DNA from: a virus
DNA length: 64,000 nt
IMG/VR virus record: IMGVR_UViG_3300028030_000010
Span: 1 to 64,000 of that record
Strand: one strand, 5' to 3'
Shown here: one piece after another, positions 3,332-56,084 of the stretch
Numbering within the stretch: position 1 is the stretch's first letter
Layout of the letters: each line of letters starts with the position of its first letter
Position numbers and translations under genes: made by a program
The notes under the pieces: model-generated
The model's database searches: none
The model's input: only the letters and a program-made list of their open reading frames with translations
Told to the model about the DNA's origin: nothing

Positions 3332-3345
3332 TTTGTTATAATTAG
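3332..3345 (+). promoter_or_regulatory. Extended -10 promoter
   Basis: TTTGTTATAATTAG, with TATAAT at 3337-3342 and a start codon 22 bases after it. No TTGACA-like -35 box is visible. It is one of a recurrent set in this window. Confidence 0.7.
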
Positions 3346-6849: not shown

Positions 6850-8472
6850 ATGTCTAACATAGCACATTTCGGTAGAACCATAACCAGATCGCAATTTGCG
6901 CAAGCTGTTTTGTGGTTAAAAGGCAAAAGATTCAATTTTGAGTTACATCAGCCTTTTAGAGAAATATACGACTGGCCTAAAAAAAATCTATTATTAAAAA
7001 CAGCTAGACAGGTTGGTAAATCTACTATGCTAGCTGCAACCCTTGTAACCGACTCTATGTTAGAGCCAAACAAAAGAACCTTTTATGCTACAACTTCTGA
7101 AAAACAAGCTAGGGAATTTGCTAGAGTTAAATTAAACGAATTTTTAGCTCGTTCACCTCTAGTTAGGAGATATTTATTAAACAAACATTCTTATGATGTA
7201 AAAGATAGTTTGTTTGACAAGAACTTTGCAAATGGTTCAGGAGTAACTATTTCTTATATGAAAGACAATGCTGATAGAACTAGGGGTTATTCTGCAGACA
7301 CTCTTATGTTAGATGAGATTCAAGATATGGACCCAAACGAAATACCTGTTGCATTAGAAATTTTATCAGCATCATTAGATCCTAGAAAATTATTTGCTGG
7401 TACACCTAAAACAATAGATAACCCAATTGAAATAATGTGGCAAAGATCTACTCAGCACGAAATATTTTTTAAATGTGAAAAATGTGGCAGTTGGAATGAT
7501 ATAGGGTATAAAAACATTGGTAAAAAAGGACCTATATGCTCTAAGTGCGGCGGATTATTAAATATGGAAAAATTTGTAATTATTCCTACCGCACCTGAAC
7601 CAGAAAAAGCCTTTTATGTTGGAGTAAGAGTTCCTCAGCCTGCATTAAAACTTCATTATGGTTTTGAAAACAAATGGAAAGATCTACTTCAAAAGTATGA
7701 AGAATATGATGAAGCCAAATTCAACAATGAGGTTCTTGGGATTTCGTTTTCTAAAGGTGCTCGTTTTATTACAGAAGAAGATATATTGGCTTGCTGTAGA
7801 CCAGGTGTGCACATTATAACTAATCCTGATAGGAACATTTTAAGAAGAAATTTTCAAACAATTGTTGCAGGAATAGACTGGAGTGGAGGAGGAATTGATT
7901 ACAATTCAAGAACTGTTTTAACTATATATGGAGAATTAAGAGGAGATGCTTCTTTTAGAGGAAGAGGAAGATTACAATTGCTTTATTATAAAATATACCC
8001 TCAGCAAGATTATATGATAACAATTAGGGATATTAAAAGGCAAATAGCATTATTTGGATGTCAGATTGTTGGAGCAGACGCTGGAGAAGGGGCTTTAAAC
8101 AATTCATATCTTGCAGATGCTTTTGGTCCACAAATGATTATACCTTTTAGATATGGTAAATTTGATAAAATCATTAAAAGAAGTCCTGATGGTTGGACAA
8201 TTTATTTAGACAAAACATCTGTTATAGATGATTTTTTTAAAGCTCTTAAACCAGGAAAAGTAGGTGATATTAATAGAGGAGGGAGGTTTATTTTTCCGTC
8301 TCCCGAAGAAATGAGAGAACCTATATTACATTTATTGTCAGAACACGAGCATATTACCAAAAATGGATACAGAATTTGGCAAAGAGGAACTCATCCAGAT
8401 GACTTCTTGCATGCTTCAGTATTTGCCTACAATGCCTTCAAGATATTAACAGGAGAATTTAAAGTTTACTAA
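6850..8472 (+). CDS. terL: Terminase large subunit
   Basis: This is the ATPase-nuclease motor that packages phage DNA through the portal. Walker A is ARQVGKST near residue 53, and Walker B plus catalytic Glu is LMLDEIQD near 155. A four-cysteine zinc knuckle (CEKCG near 209, CSKCGG near 227) sits between the ATPase and nuclease domains. The RNase H-like nuclease shows GIDWSG (near 341), GADAGEG (near 408) and HPDDFLHA (near 515), which supply the expected acidic metal ligands. At 540 residues the length is normal. The gene has its own promoter and lies just upstream of the capsid genes, while the portal is about 50 kb away on the other strand. No small terminase subunit is recognised. Confidence 0.95.
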   Translation: MSNIAHFGRTITRSQFAQAVLWLKGKRFNFELHQPFREIYDWPKKNLLLKTARQVGKSTMLAATLVTDSMLEPNKRTFYATTSEKQAREFARVKLNEFLARSPLVRRYLLNKHSYDVKDSLFDKNFANGSGVTISYMKDNADRTRGYSADTLMLDEIQDMDPNEIPVALEILSASLDPRKLFAGTPKTIDNPIEIMWQRSTQHEIFFKCEKCGSWNDIGYKNIGKKGPICSKCGGLLNMEKFVIIPTAPEPEKAFYVGVRVPQPALKLHYGFENKWKDLLQKYEEYDEAKFNNEVLGISFSKGARFITEEDILACCRPGVHIITNPDRNILRRNFQTIVAGIDWSGGGIDYNSRTVLTIYGELRGDASFRGRGRLQLLYYKIYPQQDYMITIRDIKRQIALFGCQIVGADAGEGALNNSYLADAFGPQMIIPFRYGKFDKIIKRSPDGWTIYLDKTSVIDDFFKALKPGKVGDINRGGRFIFPSPEEMREPILHLLSEHEHITKNGYRIWQRGTHPDDFLHASVFAYNAFKILTGEFKVY

Positions 8473-14259: not shown

Positions 14260-14523
14260 TTAATCCTCGTGGTAAGTTACTTTAAATTTCAATTTGTTTC
14301 TATCTGGGATTTTTTCTACTTTATTATTAAGGGACACAAGTTTGCTTTTCATTTTTACAATTTCAAACTTACCTAACTTTCTTAAATAGATTTTATCTCC
14401 TACTTCTTTTAGAGATTTTATTTCTTCAATAAAACTATCCATTACAGATCTTACCTCTTTTTTAGTTAATCCAGTTTTCTCAGACAACATCTCAATTAAA
14501 GTTATATAATTAACTTTCTTCAT
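14260..14523 (-). CDS. HU/IHF-like DNA-binding protein
   Basis: 87 residues, the usual size of an HU or IHF subunit. The N-terminal helices (NYITLIEMLSEKTGLTKKEVRSVMDSFIEEI) and the following GDKIYLRKLGKFEI match the dimerisation core of the family, where GxFxxxxR is typical. The DNA-binding arm is present but divergent (VEKIPDRNKLKFKVTYHED). It probably bends or compacts DNA during replication or packaging. First gene of a minus-strand operon, with a promoter-like element at 14544-14549. Confidence 0.75.
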   Translation of the reverse strand: MKKVNYITLIEMLSEKTGLTKKEVRSVMDSFIEEIKSLKEVGDKIYLRKLGKFEIVKMKSKLVSLNNKVEKIPDRNKLKFKVTYHED

Positions 14524-17345: not shown

Positions 17346-17759
17346 TCATTCCACAAGAGCTTGTGTGGTAAAGTGTTTATTGCTCCAATCTATTTGAAAT
17401 TCTTCTGGATATTTTAATCCATCAATGTGTATTGTTAATTGACCTATTAACATAGTTCCTGATTTATCTATATTGCTTACCTCTATTTTTGTAATTCCAT
17501 ATTTATCAGCTATTTTATTTGCATTTTTTTCTAAATAAAAGCTAAATTTAGGAGGATTTATCACTTCTCCTAAATCTTCTATCAAAGTTGTTCCATAGCC
17601 TGGCTTTAAAGGAGGAGAGAATGTTGTTAACAATTCTTGAATAAAGTTTTTAGCTTTTACTTTAGCTCTACTTTCTTCTTTTTTTGTTTGCTGAGAGACA
17701 ACAATAGGATCTGTTGATTTTGCTATTTCCAATTTAGATTGAAAAATTTCATTGATCAT
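17346..17759 (-). CDS. Unknown protein, 137 aa
   Basis: Last gene of the minus-strand operon from 19017. AAAGG precedes the start. The N-terminal half is helical and charged; the C-terminal half is beta-rich (TMLIGQLTIHIDGLKYPEEFQIDW). A PGYG element occurs here (LKPGYGTTLIEDL) and also in the neighbouring sigma-like protein (NWNPGYGNLKTYL), which may be coincidence. Function unknown. Confidence 0.6.
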   Translation of the reverse strand: MINEIFQSKLEIAKSTDPIVVSQQTKKEESRAKVKAKNFIQELLTTFSPPLKPGYGTTLIEDLGEVINPPKFSFYLEKNANKIADKYGITKIEVSNIDKSGTMLIGQLTIHIDGLKYPEEFQIDWSNKHFTTQALVE

Positions 17760-17768
17760 ATTTAACCT

Positions 17769-18410
17769 TTACTCATAAGAATTTATAGCTTCTGCGTATT
17801 GAGATATATGGTTGTCTATTTCTTTCTTGATAGAATAAAATTTTGTTTGTTTAAAACCATATTTTTTAAACAGTTGCTCTTTTGATAGTTGTTTTAAATA
17901 CATGTCTTTAGCTATATTTCTTTTTGTAGGGTCTGGTATGCTATCTATAATTTCTTTAGGTGTAATTGAAATATTTTTTGCTTGAAGATATTCATCTGTT
18001 TCAAATTGAGCTTTTGCAACTCCTCCATATAATTGCAATAAATTTTTAGCTTTATTTTCTGTAATATTCATTTTTTTTGCTAGCCAGGTAGGATTAGGTA
18101 ATCCACCATATGTGTCTTTATAGTCATCTATAATTTTTTTAGCTTTATACATTAAAAGTTGTTGATTTTCTGGCACATAAACTGGTTGATTTTTGTAAAA
18201 TTCTCTACTCAATTGTTGCAGTTGCGAACTTAAGTATGTTTTAAGATTACCGTAACCAGGATTCCAGTTTCTTAAAGCTTTTCTAATTATTGCCTCAGCT
18301 TTTGCTCTTAACACATATTCGTTTTGATTTTGTTTAAATTTATTTACAAAATATTCTAATTGTTCGTTAGCAATTTTATTTTTTTCAGGGTCTGTAGTAA
18401 ACTCAATCAT
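17769..18410 (-). CDS. Sigma-factor-like protein (divergent)
   Basis: I place the start at the ATG ending at 18410, which has AAAGGA upstream and begins MIEFTTDPEK; an upstream in-frame ATG lacks such a site. Residues about 40-90 (IIRKALRNWNPGYGNLKTYLSSQLQQLSREF, then PVYVPEN) resemble sigma region 2 to 3.0, where a conserved FDP..G..F.TYA segment and VRxP occur. LPNPTWLAKKMNITENKAKNLL resembles the region 3 helix-turn-helix. The end (LSKEQLFKKYGFKQTKFYSIKKEIDNHI) looks like a region 4 helix-turn-helix. Region 2.1-2.2 is short and atypical. It may direct the phage or host RNA polymerase to the uniform phage promoters. Another HTH structural protein is the alternative. Confidence 0.55.
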   Translation of the reverse strand: MIEFTTDPEKNKIANEQLEYFVNKFKQNQNEYVLRAKAEAIIRKALRNWNPGYGNLKTYLSSQLQQLSREFYKNQPVYVPENQQLLMYKAKKIIDDYKDTYGGLPNPTWLAKKMNITENKAKNLLQLYGGVAKAQFETDEYLQAKNISITPKEIIDSIPDPTKRNIAKDMYLKQLSKEQLFKKYGFKQTKFYSIKKEIDNHISQYAEAINSYE

Positions 18411-19017
18411 TACAGTGTCCTTTAAATTGAGGTAAATCATAAATATTATCAATAGGAGAAGTTATTTTTCCTAAATCTATTATTTCATATTCATACGCAG
18501 GAAGCTTTCCACAATCTGTAACTATTGGTGCTCCACCAGCAACATCAACAACATAAACAGGCGGTTCACACAATCTTCCACAATCAAACACATAACCAAC
18601 AAAGCCAGTGATAGAGCCTAAATCATCTAAAGATGTATCTATTTTTGTGTAATGTCTTAATCCAGCATATTCAGTTTTTACTTTAAAAAAATCTATTTCA
18701 ATATTTTCTCCTGTAGCTGTAGAACCTAAATGTATAAACATATAAAAATATGGTAATTCTTCATATGAAGTTAAAGGAAGCAACATTGTTTCTTCTGGCG
18801 TTAAATAAATAGAAATAATTCCTGGCTTACTTAAATCTGGCTCTATTTTTTTTATCAAATACGATTCTTCATCGGGAGTGTTTCTATCTTTTTTAAACAC
18901 CACATAACAATCATCATATTTCGTTAAATCCACAGGTTCTTCTACACCATATTCATTTGTTTTGGAAACAAAAAGTTCTTTGTAGTATGAGTTTGTTATC
19001 CTTATTTTTTCAGCCAT
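18403..19017 (-). CDS. Virion protein, baseplate/receptor-binding type (tentative)
   Basis: The start is the ATG ending at 19017 (MAEKIRITNSYYKELF), preceded by AAGGATT; a longer frame has no ribosome-binding site. The N-terminal 120 residues alternate strands, and IISIYLTPEETMLLPLTSYEELPYFY resembles the N-terminal domain of phage baseplate upper (BppU-type) proteins. The C-terminus has paired cysteines (CGRLCEPP, DCGKL). It overlaps the sigma-like gene by 8 bases. Function tentative. Confidence 0.5.
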   Translation of the reverse strand: MAEKIRITNSYYKELFVSKTNEYGVEEPVDLTKYDDCYVVFKKDRNTPDEESYLIKKIEPDLSKPGIISIYLTPEETMLLPLTSYEELPYFYMFIHLGSTATGENIEIDFFKVKTEYAGLRHYTKIDTSLDDLGSITGFVGYVFDCGRLCEPPVYVVDVAGGAPIVTDCGKLPAYEYEIIDLGKITSPIDNIYDLPQFKGHCND

Positions 19018-19033
19018 ATTTTTTACAATCCTT

Positions 19034-19053
19034 TTTGTTATAATTATAGCAAA
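19034..19053. promoter_or_regulatory. Palindromic divergent promoter
   Basis: TTTGTTATAATTATAGCAAA is nearly its own reverse complement. It gives extended -10 elements on both strands: TATAAT at 19039-19044 on plus and at 19043-19048 on minus. The elements serve the genes starting at 19064 and 19017. Start codons lie about 20 and 26 bases away, so both starts of transcription fall very close together. Confidence 0.65.
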
Positions 19054-19063
19054 AAGGATTAAC

Positions 19064-24757: not shown

Positions 24758-25194
24758 AAATAGAAATAGTTTCTCTTGATAAATATGTTTTTAATGATTC
24801 TGTAAAACTTTTGCAAAGATTTTATAAAGAATTTAAAGGTGAGCTTATACATAGGATAGAAGCAGAAGAGATTTTAAAAAATCCAAACAACCAAACATAT
24901 GTTTTATTAGTAGAAAATGAAGTAAGAGGATTATATGTTTTTCAACCATTCAATGAAGTGTATATAGTTAAAGCATTTATTTTACACCCATTGGTGAGAA
25001 GAACAAAAACTGGATATAGACTTTGGAAACATATGAAAGAGAAATTAAGCAAAAAACCTGCTATAATAGGAATTATTAGAAACAATAACCTTATTAAATC
25101 TATAATCAAAAAAAGAGGCCATTACATTGGAAGCGGTCTAGACAATGAGGGGCACGCATTAGATTTTTACAACTTATCTTTTAAAGGAATGTAA
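24754..25194 (+). CDS. GNAT-family acetyltransferase-like protein
   Basis: 146 residues, a normal size for a single GNAT domain. The acetyl-CoA binding region is recognisable: VYIVKAFILHPLVRRTKTGYRLWKHM has the beta4 strand followed by the R-x-x-x-G-x-R/G-x-L loop and helix, though the usual Q/RxxGxG/A is changed to RRTKTGY. The end (AIIGIIRNNNLIKSIIKKRGH) fits motif B. The substrate is unknown. It overlaps the preceding gene by ATGA and the beta' C-terminal gene by TAATG, so it is made together with the polymerase fragment. Confidence 0.65.
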   Translation: MKIEIVSLDKYVFNDSVKLLQRFYKEFKGELIHRIEAEEILKNPNNQTYVLLVENEVRGLYVFQPFNEVYIVKAFILHPLVRRTKTGYRLWKHMKEKLSKKPAIIGIIRNNNLIKSIIKKRGHYIGSGLDNEGHALDFYNLSFKGM

Positions 25195-26960
25195 TGCAAG
25201 GAACAGCTGGAGTAATTTTATTAAATTCATTAATGCCAAAAGATATCCAATTCGACCCTAAAAAACCAATAACAAAAAAAATATACACTCAAAAACTGTC
25301 GGAGTTTGCTTCAAAATACCCTGAACTCTACAAAGAAAGAATCCATGAAATTACAGCTTTGGCAGAAAAGATGGCATTTTATTTAGGAGCAAATGTTGGT
25401 ACAAAAGACTTAAAAATAGCTGAAAAAGAAGTTGAAAAACATATAAAGGAAATTGAGAAATCATTTAACAAAGCAAAATCTGTAAAAGAAAAAAAGAAAA
25501 TTCTAATGAAAGCTTTTAATGAAGCTCAAGAAACTATAAAAAAGATGGAAGATCCTAACAATGAAATGCTTTTACAAATCAAATCTTCCGCAAGAGGTAA
25601 ACCAGCTCAATTTGCAAGAATGTCTTGGGCACCTTTTTATGCAGTAGACATGGATCAAACCCCAAAGCCTATTTTGATTAAAAACAATTTCGTTAAAGGT
25701 TTAAATCCTCAAGAATATTTTGCTGTTGCAGCACAAGGAAGATTCTCAGCCGTTCAAACAGCAAATGCAACTTCAGAACCTGGAGAGTTTGGAAAAGTAT
25801 TAGTAGCAAACACAGATGACCAGGTCATCACAATGAAAGATTGTGGCACAAAAAATGGAATTTGCATGGATCCTCAAGACCATCATATAGTTGGTAGATT
25901 TGAAGCTGGAACCAATAAACTAATTGATGAAGAGTATTGGAAAAAACTTAAAAATGATAAAAACATTAAATGTGTAAAAGTTAGAAGCCCTATAACATGT
26001 GAAGCACCAAGAGGAATATGTGCGATGTGTTATGGACTAAAGCCTGACGGTAGACTTCCATCTATAGGAGAGGAAGTAGGTATAGTAGCTGCACAAAGCA
26101 TTGGCGAACCTTTAACTCAGATGGTTTTAAGCACTAAACATAGCGTAGGAGCAAAAGAAGAAGATCCTCATAAATTGCAAGGCATGGAAGGTTTTAAAAT
26201 AGTGGTTAATTCTCCTGATAGATTTAAACAAAAAGCCCCAGTAGCACCTAGATCTGGAATCGTTACCAAAATAGAAGCATCACCTCAAGGTGGTTATCTG
26301 ATTTATATAGGTGACGCCAAGAAACCTGTACACGTAGATGCTGGTAAGAAGATTTTGGTTAAAAAGGGGGATTATGTATACAAAGGGCAACAATTATCAG
26401 AAGGAGTCGCATCGGTAAAAGATGTACTACAAACTAGAGGTCTTGGTGCTGCACGTAAACATGAAGCCGATTTATTACATGAAACATTTTTAAATTCTAC
26501 AGGTAGAGACTTGAATAAAAAACATTTTGAAGTTATTGCTAGAGGACATTTATCTTTAGGTAAAGATGAATTAGGAGATATAGCTGATGTAAATGCTGCA
26601 CTAAAAAACTACCCAAGCATAAAAATGAAAAAGATGGTTTCTCCAGAATTAGCTAACGGAAAATATTATTTAGCAGAAAGTGTAGATGTGTTTTTAAAAG
26701 GAACTCCAATTGATGATTTTGTAATAAAAACCTTACAAATGCACAATATACACCAAATATATGTCACAGAACAAAAGCCTCCTGTAAAACCTATTTACAA
26801 AACATTAGTAATGCGCCCTAACTTTAACAGAAATCTATTTGCAAAACTTAACTATAGGTATCTACAAAAAGCTATGTTAGATGAAGTAAAAAGAGGCAAA
26901 GGATTTAAAACAGAAGATATTGTTTCTGGAAGAGAAAAACATACCGCCCATAAATTATAG
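25194..26960 (+). CDS. RNA polymerase beta' subunit, C-terminal part
   Basis: 588 residues colinear with the second half of bacterial beta'. GTAGVILLNSLMPKDI matches the segment just after the usual middle of beta'. SSARGKPAQFARMSWAPF is the bridge-helix region. All four second-zinc-site cysteines are kept (DCGTKNGIC near 216, and CEAPRGICAMC near 270-280). VGIVAAQSIGEPLTQMVLSTKHSVG is the trigger loop, keeping the catalytic His near residue 315, with the loop Met replaced by Leu. The large insert seen in E. coli is absent. It must combine with the beta-beta' fusion encoded at 51771-56084. Start TAATG-coupled to the GNAT gene. Confidence 0.93.
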   Translation: MQGTAGVILLNSLMPKDIQFDPKKPITKKIYTQKLSEFASKYPELYKERIHEITALAEKMAFYLGANVGTKDLKIAEKEVEKHIKEIEKSFNKAKSVKEKKKILMKAFNEAQETIKKMEDPNNEMLLQIKSSARGKPAQFARMSWAPFYAVDMDQTPKPILIKNNFVKGLNPQEYFAVAAQGRFSAVQTANATSEPGEFGKVLVANTDDQVITMKDCGTKNGICMDPQDHHIVGRFEAGTNKLIDEEYWKKLKNDKNIKCVKVRSPITCEAPRGICAMCYGLKPDGRLPSIGEEVGIVAAQSIGEPLTQMVLSTKHSVGAKEEDPHKLQGMEGFKIVVNSPDRFKQKAPVAPRSGIVTKIEASPQGGYLIYIGDAKKPVHVDAGKKILVKKGDYVYKGQQLSEGVASVKDVLQTRGLGAARKHEADLLHETFLNSTGRDLNKKHFEVIARGHLSLGKDELGDIADVNAALKNYPSIKMKKMVSPELANGKYYLAESVDVFLKGTPIDDFVIKTLQMHNIHQIYVTEQKPPVKPIYKTLVMRPNFNRNLFAKLNYRYLQKAMLDEVKRGKGFKTEDIVSGREKHTAHKL

Positions 26961-30787: not shown

Positions 30788-31297
30788 ATGAAACTACACA
30801 ACATTTCAAACGCTTTAATTAACTTTCAAGGTAGACTTATAGAGCCAGGAAGCAAAATTTATGTTAGCGAAGAAATTCTAGTTAAATATCAGCCATTATT
30901 ATATAGATATTATGAAGAAAACAAAGCAGTGATTGAAGATGTAAATGGAAAAAGGTTGTCTCTAGCTGAAGTTAAGAAAATAATCAATGGTTCTATTGTG
31001 CCGGATAAAAAAGTAGAAGAGCCAACTCCAAATTATTTAGATGTTGTTAATGAAGCTAACACAGAAAACGAAACGCCTGCAGAAAACGAAACACCTGCAG
31101 AAAACGAAACACCTGCAGAGAATGAAACGCCTGCAGAGAATGAAACGCCTGCAGAGAATGAAACGCCTGCAGAGAATGAAACACCTGCAGAGAATGAAAC
31201 GCCTGAGGTTAAAACTGAAGAAAACACTGAAGGCAAAGAGTCAGAAGAACCAAAAGTTAAAACAAAAACTACAAAAAGAAGAAATGTTAAAAAATGA
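30788..31297 (+). CDS. Virion-type protein with NETPAE tandem repeats
   Basis: 169 residues. N-terminal globular region (about 75 residues, FQGRLIEPGSKIYVSEEILVKY) resembling small tail or head accessory domains. An extended acidic linker of eight ENETPA-type hexapeptide repeats follows, then a strongly basic tail (KTKTTKRRNVKK). The layout globule - acidic linker - basic tail suggests a flexible tether. The repeat number could vary between isolates. It starts the tail operon and its stop overlaps the next ATG. Confidence 0.65.
   Translation: MKLHNISNALINFQGRLIEPGSKIYVSEEILVKYQPLLYRYYEENKAVIEDVNGKRLSLAEVKKIINGSIVPDKKVEEPTPNYLDVVNEANTENETPAENETPAENETPAENETPAENETPAENETPAENETPAENETPEVKTEENTEGKESEEPKVKTKTTKRRNVKK
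31064..31207 (+). repeat. Tandem repeat, 8 x 18 bp
   Basis: Eight in-frame 18-bp units encoding ENETPA (the last ENETPE). The first three units share AAAAC, the rest GAGAAT spellings. This pattern suggests expansion by unit duplication in at least two steps. Confidence 0.9.
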
Positions 31298-33269: not shown

Positions 33270-35405
33270 ATGTCATTAAGAATAAGACCTTACGTAAGTG
33301 TAGCTGAGTCAATTGCTCAAACAGCTCCTAACTTACTTCAAGTTACAATGCCAACTATTATAGTTGGACCTGCGGTGGATGAAAAAACTGGTTTTGACGC
33401 AGAGTTGGATTTTACTGTTATAAACAACGCTAGAATTTCTGATTTGCTTGCATTAGATTCTACTGGTAAAGTATTTAAAATTGCTGGTATTAGACCTGGT
33501 GCTACTATAGACGTGTCTAGCTTAGAGTTTGGTGCTAAAGAATTAAGTAGCGTTGTTGATTTTGCTGGGAAAGAACTTCATTTTCATGTTAAATCTTCTA
33601 CAGAAAAACACATTCTTGTATTAGAAAGTGGAGATAATTATGTTACAGAGCAAGATCTATTAGATAAAGGTGTTTTAATTGGGGATGATTTAACTATAAA
33701 TCCTCCAACAGAAGATGATGCGCCATTTACATCTAAAATTAGAGACTTTGGTAGAGATGATGATGGAAATCTATTAGTGTATCTATGGGATGAAGTTCCT
33801 TATGATGTGGATGAGACCACTTCATTAACTGCAAGCATTACAAAATATTTTAATAATGTAGCTTTAACTAAATCAGGCTTCACAATAGAAAATGTGGTAG
33901 GTTTTAGTGATAGCGTACTAATTAAAGGACCTGGTAGTTTTTCATTTGATTATTTTGTGTATCAGCCTACAGATGTAACTCCAGACTTTTCAAATATAAA
34001 AGTTTCAATTACTCCTTTAGTATTACCTAACACAAATCAAATAAAAATAACAGCATCAGCAAAAGATGGAAGATTATTTAACTGGTTTGTTGCAAATAGA
34101 ACAGATATTGCAAATCAAATCATTGATGTAAATTATAATAACTATCAAACTATTATAGGTAAAGGAACAATTAAAAACAAATTAGGTAAAGCTCTTGAGC
34201 TAATAGCTAATGAAATTCCAGGATTTAATGTGAAAATTTTTGTAGTAGAAAATGATAGCGATGACGCTTATACAAAAGCTCTAAATATACTTTCAACATC
34301 TACTAAAGCTTATCAAGTTAGTTGCTTAAGTGATTCTGAAAATGTATTAAACGCTTTAATTGGTGCAATCAAAAAAGGTGAACAACCTGAAATTAGTGCA
34401 TACAAAATGGGAATCTTTGCTCCAAGATTGCCTTTAATTTCTAAAAAACTAACACTAACTGATGCAACTATTACTGACAACGGAGATGGTACATTTACTA
34501 TTGAAACTCCTACAGGTGGATTTAGTGTAAGTGGAATTAGAGAAGGTGATGTGATAATTGGTTCTGAAGATTTAAAAATCGCAGATGAAGAATATTACAA
34601 TACAGTAGGAGAACCGTATACTGCTAAAGCAGTTGCAACTGTAACTACAGTAATCACTGATAAAAAACTTATAGTTACTCCTATTATATCTAACGCTAAT
34701 GTTGCTGAGGCTTTAAGCGGTCAAAATATAGTATTTATTTCTATTAACAACAAAGATGTTGTTGCAGATAGAATTAAAAAATTAGCTGAAAGTATTAATA
34801 ATATGCATATGGTGCTTGTTTTTCCTGATAAATTCATTATAGATGAAGAATTAGTTCCTGGTTATTATGTTGCTAGCCTTCTAGCTGCTATAATGGGACA
34901 TTTGCCTCCTCAACAAGGTTTAAGCAATCTATCTGTCAGAACTGTTGATAGAGTAGTTGGGTCTTCTTTCTATTATACTGACACAGAATTAGATGAAATT
35001 GCGGCAAGTGGGGTTACTGTGTTAGCTCAATCAAGTTATGACACTCCTCCATTTATAATTAGACAACTTACAACAAACATGAATTCTCTGGAAGAAATGG
35101 AGATTAATAAAGTTAGATGTTTAGATTATGCTGCTTTATCTATTAAAAATGTTGTAGATGGTTATGTAGGAAAAAGAAACGTTACTCAAAGAAACGTTAG
35201 TGATATAGCAGAGACAATTAAAGCTACTTTAAACAATATTATTAGAACAACAGCAAATGACTTATTAGGAAGCGTGATTACTAGTTATAAAATAAACAAT
35301 ATTGCAATTCCTGAGGATGAGCCTGATGCTATCACAGGAGATATAGAGGTGTATACACCAACATCTCTAAATGCAATTAGATTGTTTGTTAAATCAAAAA
35401 GTTAA
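33270..35405 (+). CDS. Tail sheath protein
   Basis: 711 residues, at the long end for the family. N-terminal MSLRIRPYVSVAESIAQTAPN with TIIVGPAVDE and the C-terminal conserved part (GYYVASLLAAIMGHLPPQQGLSN, RTVDRVVGSSFYYTD, GVTVLAQSS, then LDYAALSIKNVVDGYVGKRN) match phage contractile-tail sheaths. It forms the outer contractile layer around the tube. Extra length lies in the middle beta domains. AAAAGGAAAGAAG precedes the start, and the tube gene follows after 10 bases. Confidence 0.9.
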   Translation: MSLRIRPYVSVAESIAQTAPNLLQVTMPTIIVGPAVDEKTGFDAELDFTVINNARISDLLALDSTGKVFKIAGIRPGATIDVSSLEFGAKELSSVVDFAGKELHFHVKSSTEKHILVLESGDNYVTEQDLLDKGVLIGDDLTINPPTEDDAPFTSKIRDFGRDDDGNLLVYLWDEVPYDVDETTSLTASITKYFNNVALTKSGFTIENVVGFSDSVLIKGPGSFSFDYFVYQPTDVTPDFSNIKVSITPLVLPNTNQIKITASAKDGRLFNWFVANRTDIANQIIDVNYNNYQTIIGKGTIKNKLGKALELIANEIPGFNVKIFVVENDSDDAYTKALNILSTSTKAYQVSCLSDSENVLNALIGAIKKGEQPEISAYKMGIFAPRLPLISKKLTLTDATITDNGDGTFTIETPTGGFSVSGIREGDVIIGSEDLKIADEEYYNTVGEPYTAKAVATVTTVITDKKLIVTPIISNANVAEALSGQNIVFISINNKDVVADRIKKLAESINNMHMVLVFPDKFIIDEELVPGYYVASLLAAIMGHLPPQQGLSNLSVRTVDRVVGSSFYYTDTELDEIAASGVTVLAQSSYDTPPFIIRQLTTNMNSLEEMEINKVRCLDYAALSIKNVVDGYVGKRNVTQRNVSDIAETIKATLNNIIRTTANDLLGSVITSYKINNIAIPEDEPDAITGDIEVYTPTSLNAIRLFVKSKS

Positions 35406-48531: not shown

Positions 48532-49551
48532 TCACTTAATTTTGTTAGCTTTAACTTTTAATTCAAAAATTGTACCTTGATTGTTTGTTTTTATAAGCCT
48601 TATATTCCCTCCAGAAGTTTTTAAGATAGATAAATTAATATATAAACCATTTCCTCTAATATCAAGCACCTTTGTTTTTGTGGAAATGTTAGGAATGAAA
48701 ATTTTCGGTATAAACTCTTTCGGAATACCTGTTCCATTATCAGAAATAAACATATACACATATGGGTCGCTATATCTAATAAATTTAGCTTCTATCAAGG
48801 TTGAATTGGCTTCTAAAGAATTTTTTATATGATTAATTAATATGTTTAAAAAGTCAGCGTTCGATATGCAATTTTTACAGTCTAAGTTGTATTCTTTAAA
48901 CTTAACATCTATGTTCCATTTAAAATCTTTATGGGAAATTGTCATTATTTTAAACGCAGTCTCTATAACATCATAGAGTGTTTTGTTGCCATTTGAATAC
49001 TTAATCGATTTAAAACCTTTCATTTTGTTTAAAATATTGCTTATTTGTTCTATTGATGATTCCACATAAGTAAAATCTTCTCTAATATCATATAATCTTC
49101 TTAAACATGGGTTTTTATCAGGATCTGGACATTCTACTCGTCTCTGTATATCTTTTATCATTAAATCTATAAAATTCATAATTTTATACATTTTGAAAGT
49201 AATAACTTCTAAGGGAGTGCTTAGTTCGTGAGAAATGTTTTCTGTTATATTCATCAATGATTTATTTGCAGAAATGGAACTAAGATTTAAAACATTTAAT
49301 AAATATTTTTTTCTATAATTAATATAATCGATTAACAAATTACTCACAAAAACAATTAGAAAAACAATTACTACTATGTAAAAATATGAATTGGAAGCCG
49401 ACTTCCAGTCATAATGCATAAAAAAATCTAATTTTAAATGTTTGTTTTGTTGTAAAATATCATTAGATACAAGAATTAAAAATACAATTGCAGAAAAAAA
49501 CACTGAAACAAATAATTTTAAAATAGCATCTTTAATTATTTCTTTAATCAT
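48532..49551 (-). CDS. Membrane sensor histidine kinase
   Basis: 339 residues, a complete kinase. Two transmembrane helices (about 12-29 and 56-75) flank a short outside loop of about 26 residues, so sensing is likely within the membrane or at its surface. H-box NISHELSTPLEVI with phospho-accepting His108, N-box HIKNSLEAN (241-249), G1 DNGTGIP (271-277) and G2 RGNGLYI (299-305) are all intact, so it should autophosphorylate. Its start overlaps the end of the response regulator gene by 4 bases. It is last in the operon that begins with the holin, which points to control of lysis or sensing of host state. A cargo role unrelated to lysis is possible. Confidence 0.9.
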   Translation of the reverse strand: MIKEIIKDAILKLFVSVFFSAIVFLILVSNDILQQNKHLKLDFFMHYDWKSASNSYFYIVVIVFLIVFVSNLLIDYINYRKKYLLNVLNLSSISANKSLMNITENISHELSTPLEVITFKMYKIMNFIDLMIKDIQRRVECPDPDKNPCLRRLYDIREDFTYVESSIEQISNILNKMKGFKSIKYSNGNKTLYDVIETAFKIMTISHKDFKWNIDVKFKEYNLDCKNCISNADFLNILINHIKNSLEANSTLIEAKFIRYSDPYVYMFISDNGTGIPKEFIPKIFIPNISTKTKVLDIRGNGLYINLSILKTSGGNIRLIKTNNQGTIFELKVKANKIK

Positions 49552-50264
49552 TGCTCTTCTTTCTTATTGCTTAAAATATTAGAAATAATTTCTATTAACT
49601 GAGAAGGCGGATATTGATTTTTAAAAATTGTATACTTAAAAATATCCTCTCCTGTTATTTCTTTAAAAGATTCAATTATTTTTTTTGAACTATAAACATA
49701 AGGATTTAAGTTGTTTCCTGTGTAGAAGAAAAATTTTAAGTCAGGGTTATGTTTGTATATTTCCTTAAACACCATAATGCCTTCATATTTAACATTTCCT
49801 TTTTCTGGATGAAACATTACTCCGCCATAAGTTATATCTATAACAGCATAATCTATCTTTATTTTTCCAAAGCGTTTTTCTAAAATTTTAAAAATAAATC
49901 CCGCATAACTAGAATATATTTTTAACACATTTATTTTGTTTTCTAACCCATGAATTTCAATTATATCTTCAATAAGAGAAATTAAGCCTATATTATCATC
50001 TATAATAAGTAAAATTGGTTTATCATTTTTAAGCATTTTTTCATACTCTGCTATTATTTTATCTACTTCCTTTTTTATAGAATCTGGAAGTTGTCTAATG
50101 ATGTCATCTTCTGACATTTTTTCAAAAATTTTTTCACAAGAAGCAATTTCTTTTTTGGAAATATTTTTTATATCCTCATCGTAAGTCGAACGACAAATTT
50201 GTTGCAAAGAACTCCACTTGAGTAGTTTTTTTAAAAAGTTTCTTATTTTTTCTAAAACATCCAT
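49548..50264 (-). CDS. Response regulator without DNA-binding domain
   Basis: 238 residues. The first 80 are charged and helical with no recognised domain. The REC domain starts near 84: ILLIIDDN (acidic pair D89, D90), phospho-acceptor D143 in YAVIDITYGG, T182 in FFYTGNN, K215 in FKNQYPP. All key residues are present. An insert of about 14 residues follows the phospho-acceptor. There is no C-terminal output domain, so signalling would act through protein contact, perhaps via the N-terminal helices. Coupled to the kinase gene, 11 bases after the membrane protein gene. Confidence 0.85.
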   Translation of the reverse strand: MDVLEKIRNFLKKLLKWSSLQQICRSTYDEDIKNISKKEIASCEKIFEKMSEDDIIRQLPDSIKKEVDKIIAEYEKMLKNDKPILLIIDDNIGLISLIEDIIEIHGLENKINVLKIYSSYAGFIFKILEKRFGKIKIDYAVIDITYGGVMFHPEKGNVKYEGIMVFKEIYKHNPDLKFFFYTGNNLNPYVYSSKKIIESFKEITGEDIFKYTIFKNQYPPSQLIEIISNILSNKKEEQ

Positions 50265-51214: not shown

Positions 51215-51784
51215 ATGAATGAAAAATTTTTAAATGCGTATAAAAACTTAATTGGTGCTGAAGGCGGTTATGTGGATAGACCTGAAGATGCAGGAGGAGA
51301 AACTTATAAAGGTATATCTAGAAAGTTTCATCCTGATTGGGAAGGCTGGACAATTATAGATAAATACAAAGATAAACCAGATTTTAAAAGCAAAATAAAA
51401 AAAGATAAAGAATTGGAAAAACTGGTGCAAAAATTTTATTATGAAAATTACTGGGAAAAATTTAATGGCGACAAACTTCCTTATTTAATCGCTGAAGAAC
51501 TGCTAGAACAAAGCGTAGTTTTAGGGACATGGAAAACAGCTGGAAAAAATCTTCAGAAAGCTCTTAACTTATTAAATTTAAACAATAAATTATTCTCAGA
51601 TCTAATTGAAGATGGAATTGTAGGGCCTAAAACATTAGCAGCAGTAAATAAAGTAAATCAAAGAAGATTGTTGACTGTATTAAATGGATTAGAATTTTGT
51701 AGGTTTAAAGAAAGCATGGAAAAAAGACCTATAAATGAAATATTTAGGGGATGGTTTGATAGGGTAAACTTTATTCTAAAATAA
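51215..51784 (+). CDS. Endolysin, GH108-type muramidase
   Basis: 189 residues. N-terminal GAEGGYVDRPEDAGGETYKGIS is the signature of glycoside hydrolase family 108, with the catalytic Glu in EGGY and the conserved D.GG.T..GI. The C-terminal part (GIVGPKTLAAVNKVN) is the peptidoglycan-binding end of the family. It cuts the glycan chain of the cell wall at lysis. It has no signal peptide, so release depends on the holin encoded divergently. Its 3' end overlaps the convergent polymerase gene by 14 bases. Confidence 0.9.
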   Translation: MNEKFLNAYKNLIGAEGGYVDRPEDAGGETYKGISRKFHPDWEGWTIIDKYKDKPDFKSKIKKDKELEKLVQKFYYENYWEKFNGDKLPYLIAEELLEQSVVLGTWKTAGKNLQKALNLLNLNNKLFSDLIEDGIVGPKTLAAVNKVNQRRLLTVLNGLEFCRFKESMEKRPINEIFRGWFDRVNFILK

Positions 51785-54700
51785 CAGGGTCGTTATAATT
51801 TAACTTCCCTTCTCTTATTAGTTTTTTTATTTCAGCTATACTGTGAACTTTTATAGGTTTTTTCTTTGATGGAATAGAAGCTTTATACGCCCCTATAACA
51901 GCATCCTGATCTGTTATCATTAGCAAGTCTTTATGAGTAAGCGTTCCTTGATCAGTGAACAATTGCTTAGAAGCAAGCATTTTTTCTTTTACATCTTTTA
52001 TACCTTCAGGAGTTACTGGTACATGCACAGCAATTTGGTCACCATCATAGTCAGCTGCCAAAGCCCTTTCTACCATTGGAGGTAATGATATAGAGTGACC
52101 AGGAACAAATTTTGGATATGCACCAATAAGGTTATGTTTCCATAAAGATGGAGCCCTGTTGTAGACTACAGGTATTTCTTTACCTAATCTGTGTAAAAGC
52201 TTGATTACTTTTTCATCCTTATTTTTGATCATTTCTTTTATTTGCAATTGAGTGTATCCCATTTTAGCCATTTCTCTACTAATGTGAGGCTCATACATTT
52301 TAAGCCCCATTTCTTCTGGTAACTCTATTTCATCTAATTTTAAATCCCCTCTTGAGGGTGTAATTACAGCCCTTCCTGACATAAATTGATTTTTTCTAAG
52401 CAACTGTTCTTGAACAAATGAGTCTTTCGGTCTATTTCCTCCTAAAACATCTAGTATCCCTTTTACTTGCTTATTTGCAATTGCTGGATTGTTACTAGGA
52501 TACAATCCATACATAGCGCCTATAGCATGTTGCAGAGAAAGTTTTAGATCATTTATTGTTTTTTTAGATAATTTGTTTTGTTTTGCTTCTTTTAAAGTGT
52601 TGTTTAAATTAATTATTTCTTGATAATGTAGATTTAGGTCTGAAACTCCATATTTACCGGTATGGTCTTTGATAATTGGCCTATAAACAGGCGGAATTAC
52701 TGGAACTGTTTTTAATACAGCTACATCTTTTAGAGATAAGTTGTTGTTTTTTAGTTTTTCTAAAAACTTAATGATTTTTAAATTTCTATCTTTTAGTTGC
52801 TCATTTGATGTTTTTTTATTTTCATCTTTCAGTTTTTTTATTTCTTTATTTATATCTATAGCAGATAATTTCTTAATTATACTATCTACACCATCTTCAA
52901 CCATCATTTCTTTTAATTTTTTTTCAGGGATACCTAACAAGAAAGCAATTTCATATGAATAAATTGGGTTAATTAATGGTTCGTTTAATTTTATATGAGC
53001 ATACCTATTACCTAATTCTCCGAAAATAGAAGGATCAAAAAGCCCTCCTTTTCTAGGAGAACCATCAGTTGCGTTTATAGTTTCTGCACTTTTAACTTCT
53101 TTAGGCCCCTTTTTGATAATATCCTTATCTGTTGCGGGAACCAGATTGAAGCTATTTGGGTCATCTTCAACATTTACATTTAGTTGACTTAATAGAGCTT
53201 TAAATTTTTCATAGGCAAAATTTTCAGCCGGTTTAGGTAGTGGTTGTCCTTTTCTAAAGGCTTCAAACCAAGCATCATTTTTTTGGCCTTTTATTTTTCT
53301 AGCCTCTCTTAGTAAATCTTTCGCATTATGTGCTAATAACGCATTTATTTCCATATTTGAAAAAGATGAAGCCGAAGTTTTGCCACCTTTTGCTGGTTGT
53401 TCATTAATATTAACCCTATCAGTAGCAGTAGCACTCATTCCAGATTCAGAATCTTTAAAAAGCTTATAAGTGTATGGTTCTCCTACAAAAACTTTTTGAG
53501 GAAAAGGTTTGCCTGTTTCTGGATTGATTAGCGTTTCATATTGTTCAACCCCATGTTTCTTAGCTTCTTCCTCTGCAAATTTTAAATTATCAGTTAAAGA
53601 ATATTGATCTAGCACATAAGATTTGTCAGTTTTTTTTCCTACTTTACCTAGAGTTGCTTCTATTAATTGCCCAGGATTGATCCTTGAAATAACCCCAGCA
53701 GATGTAACTATAATATGTACTGGTTCACCTTTCTCATTTTTTGGCATTTTATCATCAGGTAAAATCAAAGAAATAGAACCTTTGTTACCATATCTCCCTG
53801 ATAACTTGTCACCTATTTGGGCCTTAGATTTTGTTTTTACAAAAACCCTAATATTGTTCCCTGATTTGTTTACAGACACCACTTTACCATCATGATGATG
53901 AGTCCATGTTTCTAATTTCAATTTGTATGGTTTAAATAAAGTTTTTTCTAAAGAAGTTATAGGTTTATCTTTATTTACGACTAATTTAATCACTAAAGGT
54001 TCATTAAATTTAACGGTTGCGCCTTTTTTTATAACTCCGTGCTCATCATACTTTGATAAATCATATTTAGATAAAGTAAGAGGAAATAAAGCCTTAGCCT
54101 TTTTTAAATCTAATACATCATCTCTATCTATATGAATTTCTTCTTTATACATATGAAGAGAAGTTAAGTTTTTGGCTGCAGTTTCAGATACAATGATTGC
54201 ATCATTTCTGTTGCCAGGCATCGACATCCAAGCTGTTCTTAAATGCACTCCATTTGCAAAATAACCATCTTTAGCATAGTTACTTTCTGCTATCACTTCT
54301 CCTTTTTTTACTCTATCTCCTACCTTAACCTTAGGCTCCATAGATATGTATGTTTTTCTAGCTAATGGAAGGTCTTTTATGTATTTAATTTTATGACCAT
54401 CTATTTGAATGTAATCATCAGTTATTTTTTCAACTTTACCAGAAACAGGACTTTTCACAACTTGGTTTGTTTTTTCTGCTATTTTTTTATAAAAATCTTC
54501 ATTTTTATCTTTTGTTCTAACAATTGGAGCTTCTCTATGTTCTAGCGATAAAGCTTGTTGAGCGTGCTTTTGAGCCATTGTAGCTCTCATGCCATCCATT
54601 GAATTAATAAGAGGCAATGTTTTTGTTGATGAAGTGTGTATATCGCTTGAGCTTTCTATCGCATAATCTACATCTTTTAGAGACTTTACTGTATATTCTT

Positions 54701-56084
54701 TTTCTCCATCTCTAATTGGAATTCCTTCTTTTTTAGCTCTCTCTTTTGATGCAGGATAAGCTACTTTTTTGTTCCACAATTCTTTTATTGTTTTTATTTC
54801 TTTTTTTCCTGTTTTTACATTTAAAACTTCTATTGCAGGCTCTCCATTTTCATCAACATATGCATTATTTGTTACTGCCAATGTAATCCCTGTCTTTGCT
54901 CCTTCCGGAGACACAACTGGGTCAATAAAACCTAATTGAGAAGAATGAATTGCTTTATCATCTTCTGTTAAAGCTCTATCTGTTTCTATTCCACCTTCTC
55001 CTAAAGGAGTTAACAATTTTGTTGCCATATGTGTTTGAATAGGGTTGTATTCTTCTGGCATTCTGGATATCTTTGAAACAGTTAAAAAACTTTTTAGTGT
55101 ATCAGTTAAATAATTGTGATTAAATACATCATTTAACGAATTAAGTGCTGGATTGTTTAATTTTTGTTTTATTTTAAAAATTTCTTTTACTGAATTTTTT
55201 GCAAAATATTCAGGCATAAGATGTATAGCGTTTAACACTTTTCTATTAGCTAAGTTGTTTTTCTGTTTTAAATCTACTTCTTCTCCTCTGTAAGCTTTCA
55301 ATATTTGCTTAATGTTTGCGAAAATCAATTCGGGAGTTAATTTGCTTGTCTCAACTCCAAAGTTTCTTTTGTTAACATCTGGGTCCAATTCCATATGATC
55401 AAAAATATACTTTATCTGTTCTGTTAATGGCTTTTGTTTTATATCATTTGGCAAAGAGTATGATTTTTTTATAAATTTTTCTAAATCAGTTGGATTTGTT
55501 TTATTTATATTGATTTCATATAGCTTTTTCCCTAATTTTCTTTTAATTTCTTCATCAGAAACACCTAACGCTTTCAATATGCTAACAACAGACACATTAG
55601 AATTTCCTATGTTAAAATAAATTACACCAGTATCTGGGTTAAGTGTTATTTTGAATTGTCTGTTTCCTATTGGATTAACTATTGTAACAATTTCTCCATT
55701 TTTTCTTTCGAACAAATAAGTACCAGGTTTTAATCTTTGCTGATTAGGTATAGCATACGAATTCCCATCTATTATGAAAGTTTCTTTAGGTGAGAATTTA
55801 GGAACTTTAGCTATCAAAATGTTTTTTTTACATTCTATTTTTTTATTATCCTTTTTTCTAATTAAACAAACATCTCCTCTAATTTCATTAAATAAACTTT
55901 TGCCTTTTAAAATAGCATTCTTAACATCTTCTAAGTCCACTTCTTTTTGTATTCCTTTAACATTGGAAACTTCTATTTTGTAAAAGTTCCCTTCTATGGG
56001 AAAGGTTTTTTCAACTTCCTTAACAACATTATTTAATATGTGTTTATCAATTTTTTCTGGAGAATCATCTATTTTGTAAAACAT
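51771..56084 (-). CDS. RNA polymerase beta subunit fused to N-terminal beta'
   Basis: 1437 residues. Residues about 1-970 are a complete bacterial-type beta: the GFIDPVVSPEGAKTGITLAV segment, NSMDGMRATMAQKHAQQAL, PGNRNDAIIVSE near 623, GRYGNKG near 761, and GGKTSASSFSNMEINALLAH near the end of beta. From about 980, LVPATDKDI and GGLFDPSIFG open beta'. The first zinc finger is missing. The catalytic metal motif is AADYDGDQIAVHVP near 1340 (canonical NADFDGDQ). It ends where the other phage chain (25194-26960) begins. TAGGAG precedes the start. No alpha or omega gene is seen. Helicobacter has a natural beta-beta' fusion, but there beta' is complete. Confidence 0.95.
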   Translation of the reverse strand: MFYKIDDSPEKIDKHILNNVVKEVEKTFPIEGNFYKIEVSNVKGIQKEVDLEDVKNAILKGKSLFNEIRGDVCLIRKKDNKKIECKKNILIAKVPKFSPKETFIIDGNSYAIPNQQRLKPGTYLFERKNGEIVTIVNPIGNRQFKITLNPDTGVIYFNIGNSNVSVVSILKALGVSDEEIKRKLGKKLYEININKTNPTDLEKFIKKSYSLPNDIKQKPLTEQIKYIFDHMELDPDVNKRNFGVETSKLTPELIFANIKQILKAYRGEEVDLKQKNNLANRKVLNAIHLMPEYFAKNSVKEIFKIKQKLNNPALNSLNDVFNHNYLTDTLKSFLTVSKISRMPEEYNPIQTHMATKLLTPLGEGGIETDRALTEDDKAIHSSQLGFIDPVVSPEGAKTGITLAVTNNAYVDENGEPAIEVLNVKTGKKEIKTIKELWNKKVAYPASKERAKKEGIPIRDGEKEYTVKSLKDVDYAIESSSDIHTSSTKTLPLINSMDGMRATMAQKHAQQALSLEHREAPIVRTKDKNEDFYKKIAEKTNQVVKSPVSGKVEKITDDYIQIDGHKIKYIKDLPLARKTYISMEPKVKVGDRVKKGEVIAESNYAKDGYFANGVHLRTAWMSMPGNRNDAIIVSETAAKNLTSLHMYKEEIHIDRDDVLDLKKAKALFPLTLSKYDLSKYDEHGVIKKGATVKFNEPLVIKLVVNKDKPITSLEKTLFKPYKLKLETWTHHHDGKVVSVNKSGNNIRVFVKTKSKAQIGDKLSGRYGNKGSISLILPDDKMPKNEKGEPVHIIVTSAGVISRINPGQLIEATLGKVGKKTDKSYVLDQYSLTDNLKFAEEEAKKHGVEQYETLINPETGKPFPQKVFVGEPYTYKLFKDSESGMSATATDRVNINEQPAKGGKTSASSFSNMEINALLAHNAKDLLREARKIKGQKNDAWFEAFRKGQPLPKPAENFAYEKFKALLSQLNVNVEDDPNSFNLVPATDKDIIKKGPKEVKSAETINATDGSPRKGGLFDPSIFGELGNRYAHIKLNEPLINPIYSYEIAFLLGIPEKKLKEMMVEDGVDSIIKKLSAIDINKEIKKLKDENKKTSNEQLKDRNLKIIKFLEKLKNNNLSLKDVAVLKTVPVIPPVYRPIIKDHTGKYGVSDLNLHYQEIINLNNTLKEAKQNKLSKKTINDLKLSLQHAIGAMYGLYPSNNPAIANKQVKGILDVLGGNRPKDSFVQEQLLRKNQFMSGRAVITPSRGDLKLDEIELPEEMGLKMYEPHISREMAKMGYTQLQIKEMIKNKDEKVIKLLHRLGKEIPVVYNRAPSLWKHNLIGAYPKFVPGHSISLPPMVERALAADYDGDQIAVHVPVTPEGIKDVKEKMLASKQLFTDQGTLTHKDLLMITDQDAVIGAYKASIPSKKKPIKVHSIAEIKKLIREGKLNYNDPVILE

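Follow-up and report, generated by a model that had tools for sequence, protein, structure and literature searches.

Salmonella phage Arash and Vibrio phage D69 each encode a two-chain multisubunit RNA polymerase, a short sigma factor of PHROG 351 within the structural gene cluster (Gp10 and VPHD69_0011, respectively) and an additional, canonical sigma factor (Gp196 in Arash). In the available part of the Arash report, the virion list comprises 116 proteins, with the polymerase protein Gp206 giving the highest spectral count of all (3516), the polymerase protein Gp216 giving 1210 and Gp10 giving 467, the latter with 24 unique peptides and 100% coverage; Gp196 is absent from the virion table, and the authors' explanations are early transcription or carry-over (PMC10585845). 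The unique-peptide count of Gp10 resembles those of structural proteins in the same part of the report (30 for the capsid and 32 for the portal protein), and some of the listed proteins were probably carried over. Since this listing is published, the presence of Gp10 in Arash virions is already in print; it hints that phages of this kind may bring all the parts needed to read promoters and transcribe into the cell with them.

Other phages provide their promoter specificity differently. T4 gp55, comparable as a small phage sigma factor serving late genes, acts on the host core together with the sliding clamp and is not known to have sigma3 and sigma4 domains. In the non-virion polymerases of AR9 and phiKZ, which have four or five core chains, gp226 and gp68 are the promoter-specificity subunits; the sequence of AR9 gp226, as described in the available part of its report, shows no similarity to sigma factors that could be detected, whereas its structure is sigma-like, with N- and C-terminal folds that are unique (PMC9209446). 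The accessible sections of reviews describe polymerase-bearing jumbo phages as having no recognisable sigma factor (PMC7824862; PMC13282480), and sigma homologues as usual in jumbo phages without a polymerase of their own (PMC7598289).

Here we analyse a stretch of viral DNA of 64,000 nucleotides (hereafter the window), which is most of an IMG/VR virus record of 76,440 bases, IMGVR_UViG_3300028030_000010. It resembles Arash and D69 in encoding a short sigma factor of similar length in a structural cluster, together with the same two-chain polymerase. The window protein is about 20% identical to Gp10 and VPHD69_0011; Arash and D69 differ from the window's subclade in their additional canonical sigma factor and in their promoters, which read GnTATAAGnAA as opposed to TTTGnTATAATT in the window. 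The role that we propose is like that of gp226 and gp68, but the window protein, unlike gp226, is recognised as a sigma factor by sequence profile and not by structural likeness alone, and its polymerase core has two chains where the AR9 and phiKZ type has at least four. With its sigma3- and sigma4-like domains it also departs from the sigma2-only type of T4 gp55. Compared with the bacterial sigma-70 factors SigA, RpoS and WhiG, it has sigma2, sigma3 and sigma4 folds in the same order, but no region 1, a divergent region 2.1-2.2 and a replaced RpoD W433/W434 pair, and it belongs to a phage with its own polymerase.

As the available review sections associate an own polymerase with the lack of a recognisable sigma, this lineage is an exception. 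Our literature search, thin on subscription papers, found, apart from the Arash listing, no paper that describes a sigma in virions alongside a multisubunit polymerase. What is new here is the conservation of the pairing across the lineage, the member in the window and the promoter classes.

A divergent sigma-70-family factor among structural genes

The sigma gene is the middle one of a tight run of three genes:

18403..19017, minus strand: gene of 204 aa, function not assigned, first of the operon; its last bases overlap the beginning of the sigma gene
17769..18410, minus strand: short sigma-70-family factor of 213 aa (reading frame, profiles, predicted fold)
17346..17759, minus strand: gene of 137 aa, perhaps baseplate gp25-like (by eye only), 9 nt past the sigma gene

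The sigma frame opens with an ATG at 18410, with an AAAGGA (by eye) 7 nt upstream of it; a longer form starting at a TTG at 18452 is possible. The 204-aa protein is kept at 69% identity in a related 161 kb record, G001. We also considered the 137-aa neighbour as gp25-like, with a sigma-gp25 order common to Arash; profile comparisons with the neighbouring genes of Arash and D69 were not significant, and we keep the resemblance as a lead seen by eye. A large terminase (6850-8472), a tail sheath (33270-35405) and an endolysin (51215-51784) are encoded around the sigma gene, and its earlier placement beside structural genes therefore holds. In the same profile scan, 7 of 10 further neighbour genes had no match, and no portal or capsid protein was identified in the window.

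Several further features were noted. An HU-like DNA-binding protein (14260-14523; Pfam Bac_DNA_binding, E 2.5e-13) is encoded amid the structural genes, and a protein with about eight tandem ENETPA repeats (30788-31297) adjoins the tail genes. Two adjacent genes at 48532-50264 resemble, by eye, a membrane histidine kinase (HELSTP) and a response-regulator-like protein, a pair that is unusual for a phage. Three relatives have GroEL-like chaperonin genes, recognised by eye from ATKDGVSVIRAL and GDGTTT, near their structural genes:

L174 11767-13203, minus strand: GroEL-like chaperonin gene
L177 1372-2808, plus strand: GroEL-like chaperonin gene
L178 11181-12602, minus strand: GroEL-like chaperonin gene

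A preliminary description had proposed a candidate sigma factor from a segment like region 2.3-2.4, followed by VPEN and two helix-turn-helix-like segments. All of these can be seen in the sequence. The top PHROG match of the window protein is phrog_351, 'RNA polymerase sigma factor' (E 2.2e-4), and the same family is matched independently by its 65%-identical relative in G001 (E 6.5e-4). Taken alone, the window protein gave no sigma match in Pfam, Sigma70_r3 included, and seven weak, unrelated matches with no sigma factor among them in the PDB sequence search; neither tblastn against the phage collection, with E values as high as 10 admitted, nor a peptide pattern search of viral contigs retrieved relatives. 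After these single-sequence searches had given nothing, the lineage was reached via the neighbouring beta' C-terminal (beta'C) gene of the phage polymerase. This route yielded five more relatives, which share 15-23% identity with the window protein; their profile and that of the window pair align across 177 columns with an E of 1.1e-8 and a probability of 95.6.

We then compared a subclade profile, made of the window protein and six uncultured relatives with the Arash-type members left out, to the PDB sequences. Sigma factors accounted for 59 among the best 60 of 67 distinct matches up to E 10, the best being SigA (E 4e-9), covering regions 2.3 to 3. Of the 15 family members, 12 match PHROG 351 and 13 match Pfam Sigma70_r3, the window protein not being one of the 13. 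L34, T58 and R69 are invariant in the 15 sequences and E81 almost so. Homology to sigma factors is thus found via the subclade profile and PHROG 351; the window protein by itself stays below the Pfam thresholds.

The structure predicted in an AlphaFold run on 15 sequences (mean pLDDT 76.7, pTM 0.39) has three groups of helices, at residues 8-73, 81-129 and 151-211. The domains were assigned as follows:

18180..18398, minus strand: sigma2-like domain, residues 5-77, with a divergent region 2.1-2.2 and then 2.3-2.4 (model, structural match)
18024..18170, minus strand: sigma3-like domain, residues 81-129, beginning at VPEN (profile, model, structural match)
17778..17969, minus strand: sigma4-like helix-turn-helix domain, residues 148-211 (structural match to WhiG 6pfj)

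The model thus has putative sigma2 and sigma4 domains in the canonical order, and the helices at 81-129 provide a sigma3 domain, which is absent from ECF sigma factors. All of the best 50 Foldseek rows are sigma factors (top E 2e-4), with whole-chain TM-scores below 0.4, as expected if the placement of the domains differs. Sigma entries were likewise all 50 among the matches listed by VIA-align, which superposed residues 5-128 on SigA 8x6f (Z 8.9, 5.7 A, 124 residues), residues 148-208 on WhiG 6pfj (Z 8.9, 1.5 A, 60 residues) and residues 6-78 on the N-terminal domain of SigE 8b3z (Z 8.7, 2.7 A, 73 residues), although by the program's own warning a Z of such size is not decisive for helical proteins.

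The shortness of region 2.1-2.2 had left two options, a very divergent sigma factor or no true one. The model has two helices (residues 8-25 and 31-48) ahead of region 2.3 and, since residues 5-77 align to solved sigma2 domains, the region is present but divergent, and not missing. A fold unlike sigma domains had been named as evidence against the assignment; the model instead shows sigma2-, sigma3- and sigma4-like domains. Region 2.3 differs in one respect. The RpoD tryptophan pair W433/W434 opens DNA, and an aromatic pair at this place is not universal in the sigma-70 family. The window protein, aligned by eye, has S62 and Q63 at the places of W433/W434, and strand opening would therefore differ in detail. 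From profiles, predicted fold and relatives, we conclude that the gene encodes a real but very divergent, small sigma-70-family initiation factor.

Extended -10 promoters in the window and its relatives

The sigma operon is headed by one of a set of promoter-like sites:

19030..19057, both directions: near-palindromic two-way extended -10 promoter, heading the sigma operon (minus) and a 189-aa gene (plus)
3332..3343, plus strand: TTTGnTATAATT promoter-like site, exact match
6822, 8476, 14566, 19634 and 63147, plus strand: other TTTGnTATAATT sites, exact matches

In the two-way promoter, CCTTTTTGyTATAATTATArCAAAAAGG, which includes the previously proposed promoter at 19034-19053, the -10 elements overlap on both strands, and the arrangement is kept in G001 (L182 11037-11056), that is, between two viruses. 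The window has eight exact matches to TTTGnTATAATT, all of them 26-47 nt before an ORF start on the same strand. In the 76.4-kb record there are nine (0.57 expected; the largest of 40 simulations gave 3). The uniform promoter motif of the preliminary description is real as a set of exact matches; with one mismatch allowed, the excess in the window is not significant (18 vs. 13.8, a count of 18 being reached by 13 of 100 shuffles). Among 18 aligned TTTGnTATAAT sites there was no conserved -35 element; an A-run and a G follow 6-13 nt after TATAAT, which suggests that transcription probably starts within this A-run or close to it, upstream of the ribosome site.

The motif was also recovered by expectation maximization (EM) on 106 upstream regions drawn from the window and from the structural half of G001 (ttTTtTGnTATAATT, 39 sites, score 135 vs. 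51-57 for shuffles); in a first k-mer enrichment run it was not among the strongest k-mers. G001 contains six exact TTTGnTATAATT sites in its first 80 kb (0.53 expected) and one in its second (0.45 expected). In G004, EM gave tttTnTGnTATAATA (score 79 vs. 50-57), but TGnTATAAT is only modestly enriched there, in several separate stretches, so that G001 is the one record for which we can show that the motif keeps to the structural half. A search for host-type promoters (TTGACA-N16-18-TATAAT) gave no site in G000 or in the structural half of G001. Only a Shine-Dalgarno-like sequence stood out in the non-structural half of that record, with no other motif and no early promoter class; this part (80-160 kb, L184-L187), which lacks TTTGnTATAATT enrichment, favours AAAGGAG ribosome sites, and the structural half has AAAAAAGGA leaders.

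Arash and D69 have a strong element, GnTATAAGnAA, ahead of their non-structural genes, which departs from the TATAAT consensus and was located upstream of genes in these loci:

L003, L020, L022, L195-L199 (Arash): GnTATAAGnAA (upstream motif)
L004, L021, L200-L204 (D69): GnTATAAGnAA (upstream motif)

EM on the non-structural genes returned tGGTATAAGnAA for Arash (score 145 vs. 51-58 for shuffles) and TGtTATAAGtAAtAT for D69 (166 vs. 53-55). Arash has 33 G[GT]TATAAG sites (4.1 expected), 31 of them on the minus strand, home of most of its non-structural genes. The G at the position where TATAAT has its final T suggests that the reader is specific to the phage. The structural sets of both phages gave no clear motif by EM; Arash shows a weak CTAAAATA signal (5 vs. 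1.8).

Whether the window sigma targets the TTTGnTATAATT promoters of the structural half is, in our judgement, evenly balanced. The host polymerase with a host sigma may read them instead, leaving the packaged phage sigma to serve other promoters, a reading that we consider possible rather than probable. TGnTATAAT agrees with the consensus for extended -10 elements read by primary sigma factors of bacteria, and the different element used by Arash and D69 in non-structural genes is consistent with such a division of labour; the absence of a -35 element and, in G001, the confinement of the motif to the structural half argue against it.

Co-inheritance of the sigma factor and a two-chain phage polymerase

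The window that encodes the sigma factor also encodes a multisubunit RNA polymerase of two chains:

51771..56084, minus strand: fused beta / beta' N-terminal chain, 1437 aa (Rpb2_3, Rpb2_6, Rpb1_1, Rpb1_2)
25194..26960, plus strand: beta' C-terminal chain, 588 aa (Pfam RNA_pol_Rpb1_5, E 3.4e-25)

Aligned to E. coli RpoC, the fused chain retains both the ADYDGD motif of catalysis and the clamp-helix region (DLNLHYQEIINLNNTLKEA in the window against DLNDLYRRVINRNNRLKRL); a short conserved stretch relative to RpoB marks the flap tip (TSLEKTLFKPY in the window). In the E. coli subunits, the clamp helices and the flap tip contact sigma; their counterparts in the fused chain are putative docking elements. 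Exactly one Rpb1_2 match was found in 11 of 13 records and none in the other two, both of about 80 kb.

We kept 80 of 90 polymerase relatives and searched 50 of the 80, picked by length and closeness, for the sigma factor. A short sigma was found in 33 of these 50 polymerase-bearing IMG/VR records (E 0.1 or better), and in all 15 that reach at least 150 kb, six of which (G001, G030, G032, G033, G037 and G040) had contributed rows to the search model. In ten of these 15, a second sigma, of the canonical type, is encoded elsewhere; G001, G004, G009, G048 and G049 have none. A Sigma70_r2 search of G000 and G001 found no second, canonical sigma, and a phrog_351 search of G001, G004, G005, G006, G007 and G009 gave at most one match in each, with none in G004 and G007; for G000, G005, G006 and G007 the absence of a second sigma is weak evidence, because each is shorter than 100 kb. 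Pairwise distances of sigma and beta'C are strongly correlated (r 0.894 over 35 records, against a highest value of 0.223 in 2000 permutations), G013 having been dropped by a length filter as open-frame picking gave an over-long sigma. This correlation speaks for co-inheritance, not for contact. Sigma factor and phage polymerase are thus co-inherited across the lineage, and we consider it likely that the short sigma is the sigma of the phage's own two-chain polymerase.

An improbable alternative is that the phage sigma redirects the host core to phage promoters, the phage polymerase using something else. Most known phage sigma factors do act on the host core, according to the available part of one review (PMC7598289), and the TGnTATAAT motif is host-like, but the sigma accompanies the phage polymerase in all 15 long records and matches it in pairwise distances, the docking elements are kept in the phage chains, and the Arash homologue is found in virions together with the polymerase in the published listing. 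That the protein is a helix-turn-helix structural or regulatory protein merely resembling a sigma factor, as the weak matches of the window protein alone and its lack of a Pfam sigma match might suggest, is very improbable indeed given the sigma entries that dominate the PDB matches of the subclade profile and fill the best 50 rows of both structural searches, and given a domain order identical to that of sigma factors.

Proposed packaging and its significance

Arash has the same polymerase as the window, with a beta'C chain 30% identical to that of the window. The Gp10-type profile aligns with the window pair over 139 columns (hhalign, E 1.1e-4, with a probability of only 56), and the search model reached intermediates between the two. 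The window sigma is thus related by profile to Gp10 and VPHD69_0011, and is encoded together with both polymerase chains. By analogy with Gp10, it would probably be produced alongside the structural proteins, enter the particle together with the polymerase and be injected.

The explanation that we favour overall is a divergent sigma factor of the phage polymerase that is probably packaged and reads extended -10 promoters. The beta' clamp helices would be the docking site of its sigma2 domain and the flap tip that of sigma4, while sigma2 and sigma3 would recognise an extended -10 element that has no -35 partner. Synthesis of the sigma with the structural proteins would be followed by packaging with the polymerase and then by injection. 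If TTTGnTATAATT is not the target, the packaged holoenzyme would start early genes from other promoters. More tentatively, at somewhat below even confidence, we propose that this phage lineage packages and injects a complete sigma-dependent holoenzyme, consisting of the two-chain polymerase and a true sigma-70-family factor, with promoters of the extended -10-only type; the window's subclade would manage with a single sigma, to which Arash-like members add a second, canonical one.

The two strategies that the available review sections present as separate, an own polymerase or a sigma homologue, are combined and co-inherited in this lineage. With no more than two core chains and a single small sigma, it offers a simple setting in which to study sigma dependence and promoter opening, and their evolution outside cells; it also allows one to ask whether a whole holoenzyme enters the cell with the DNA.
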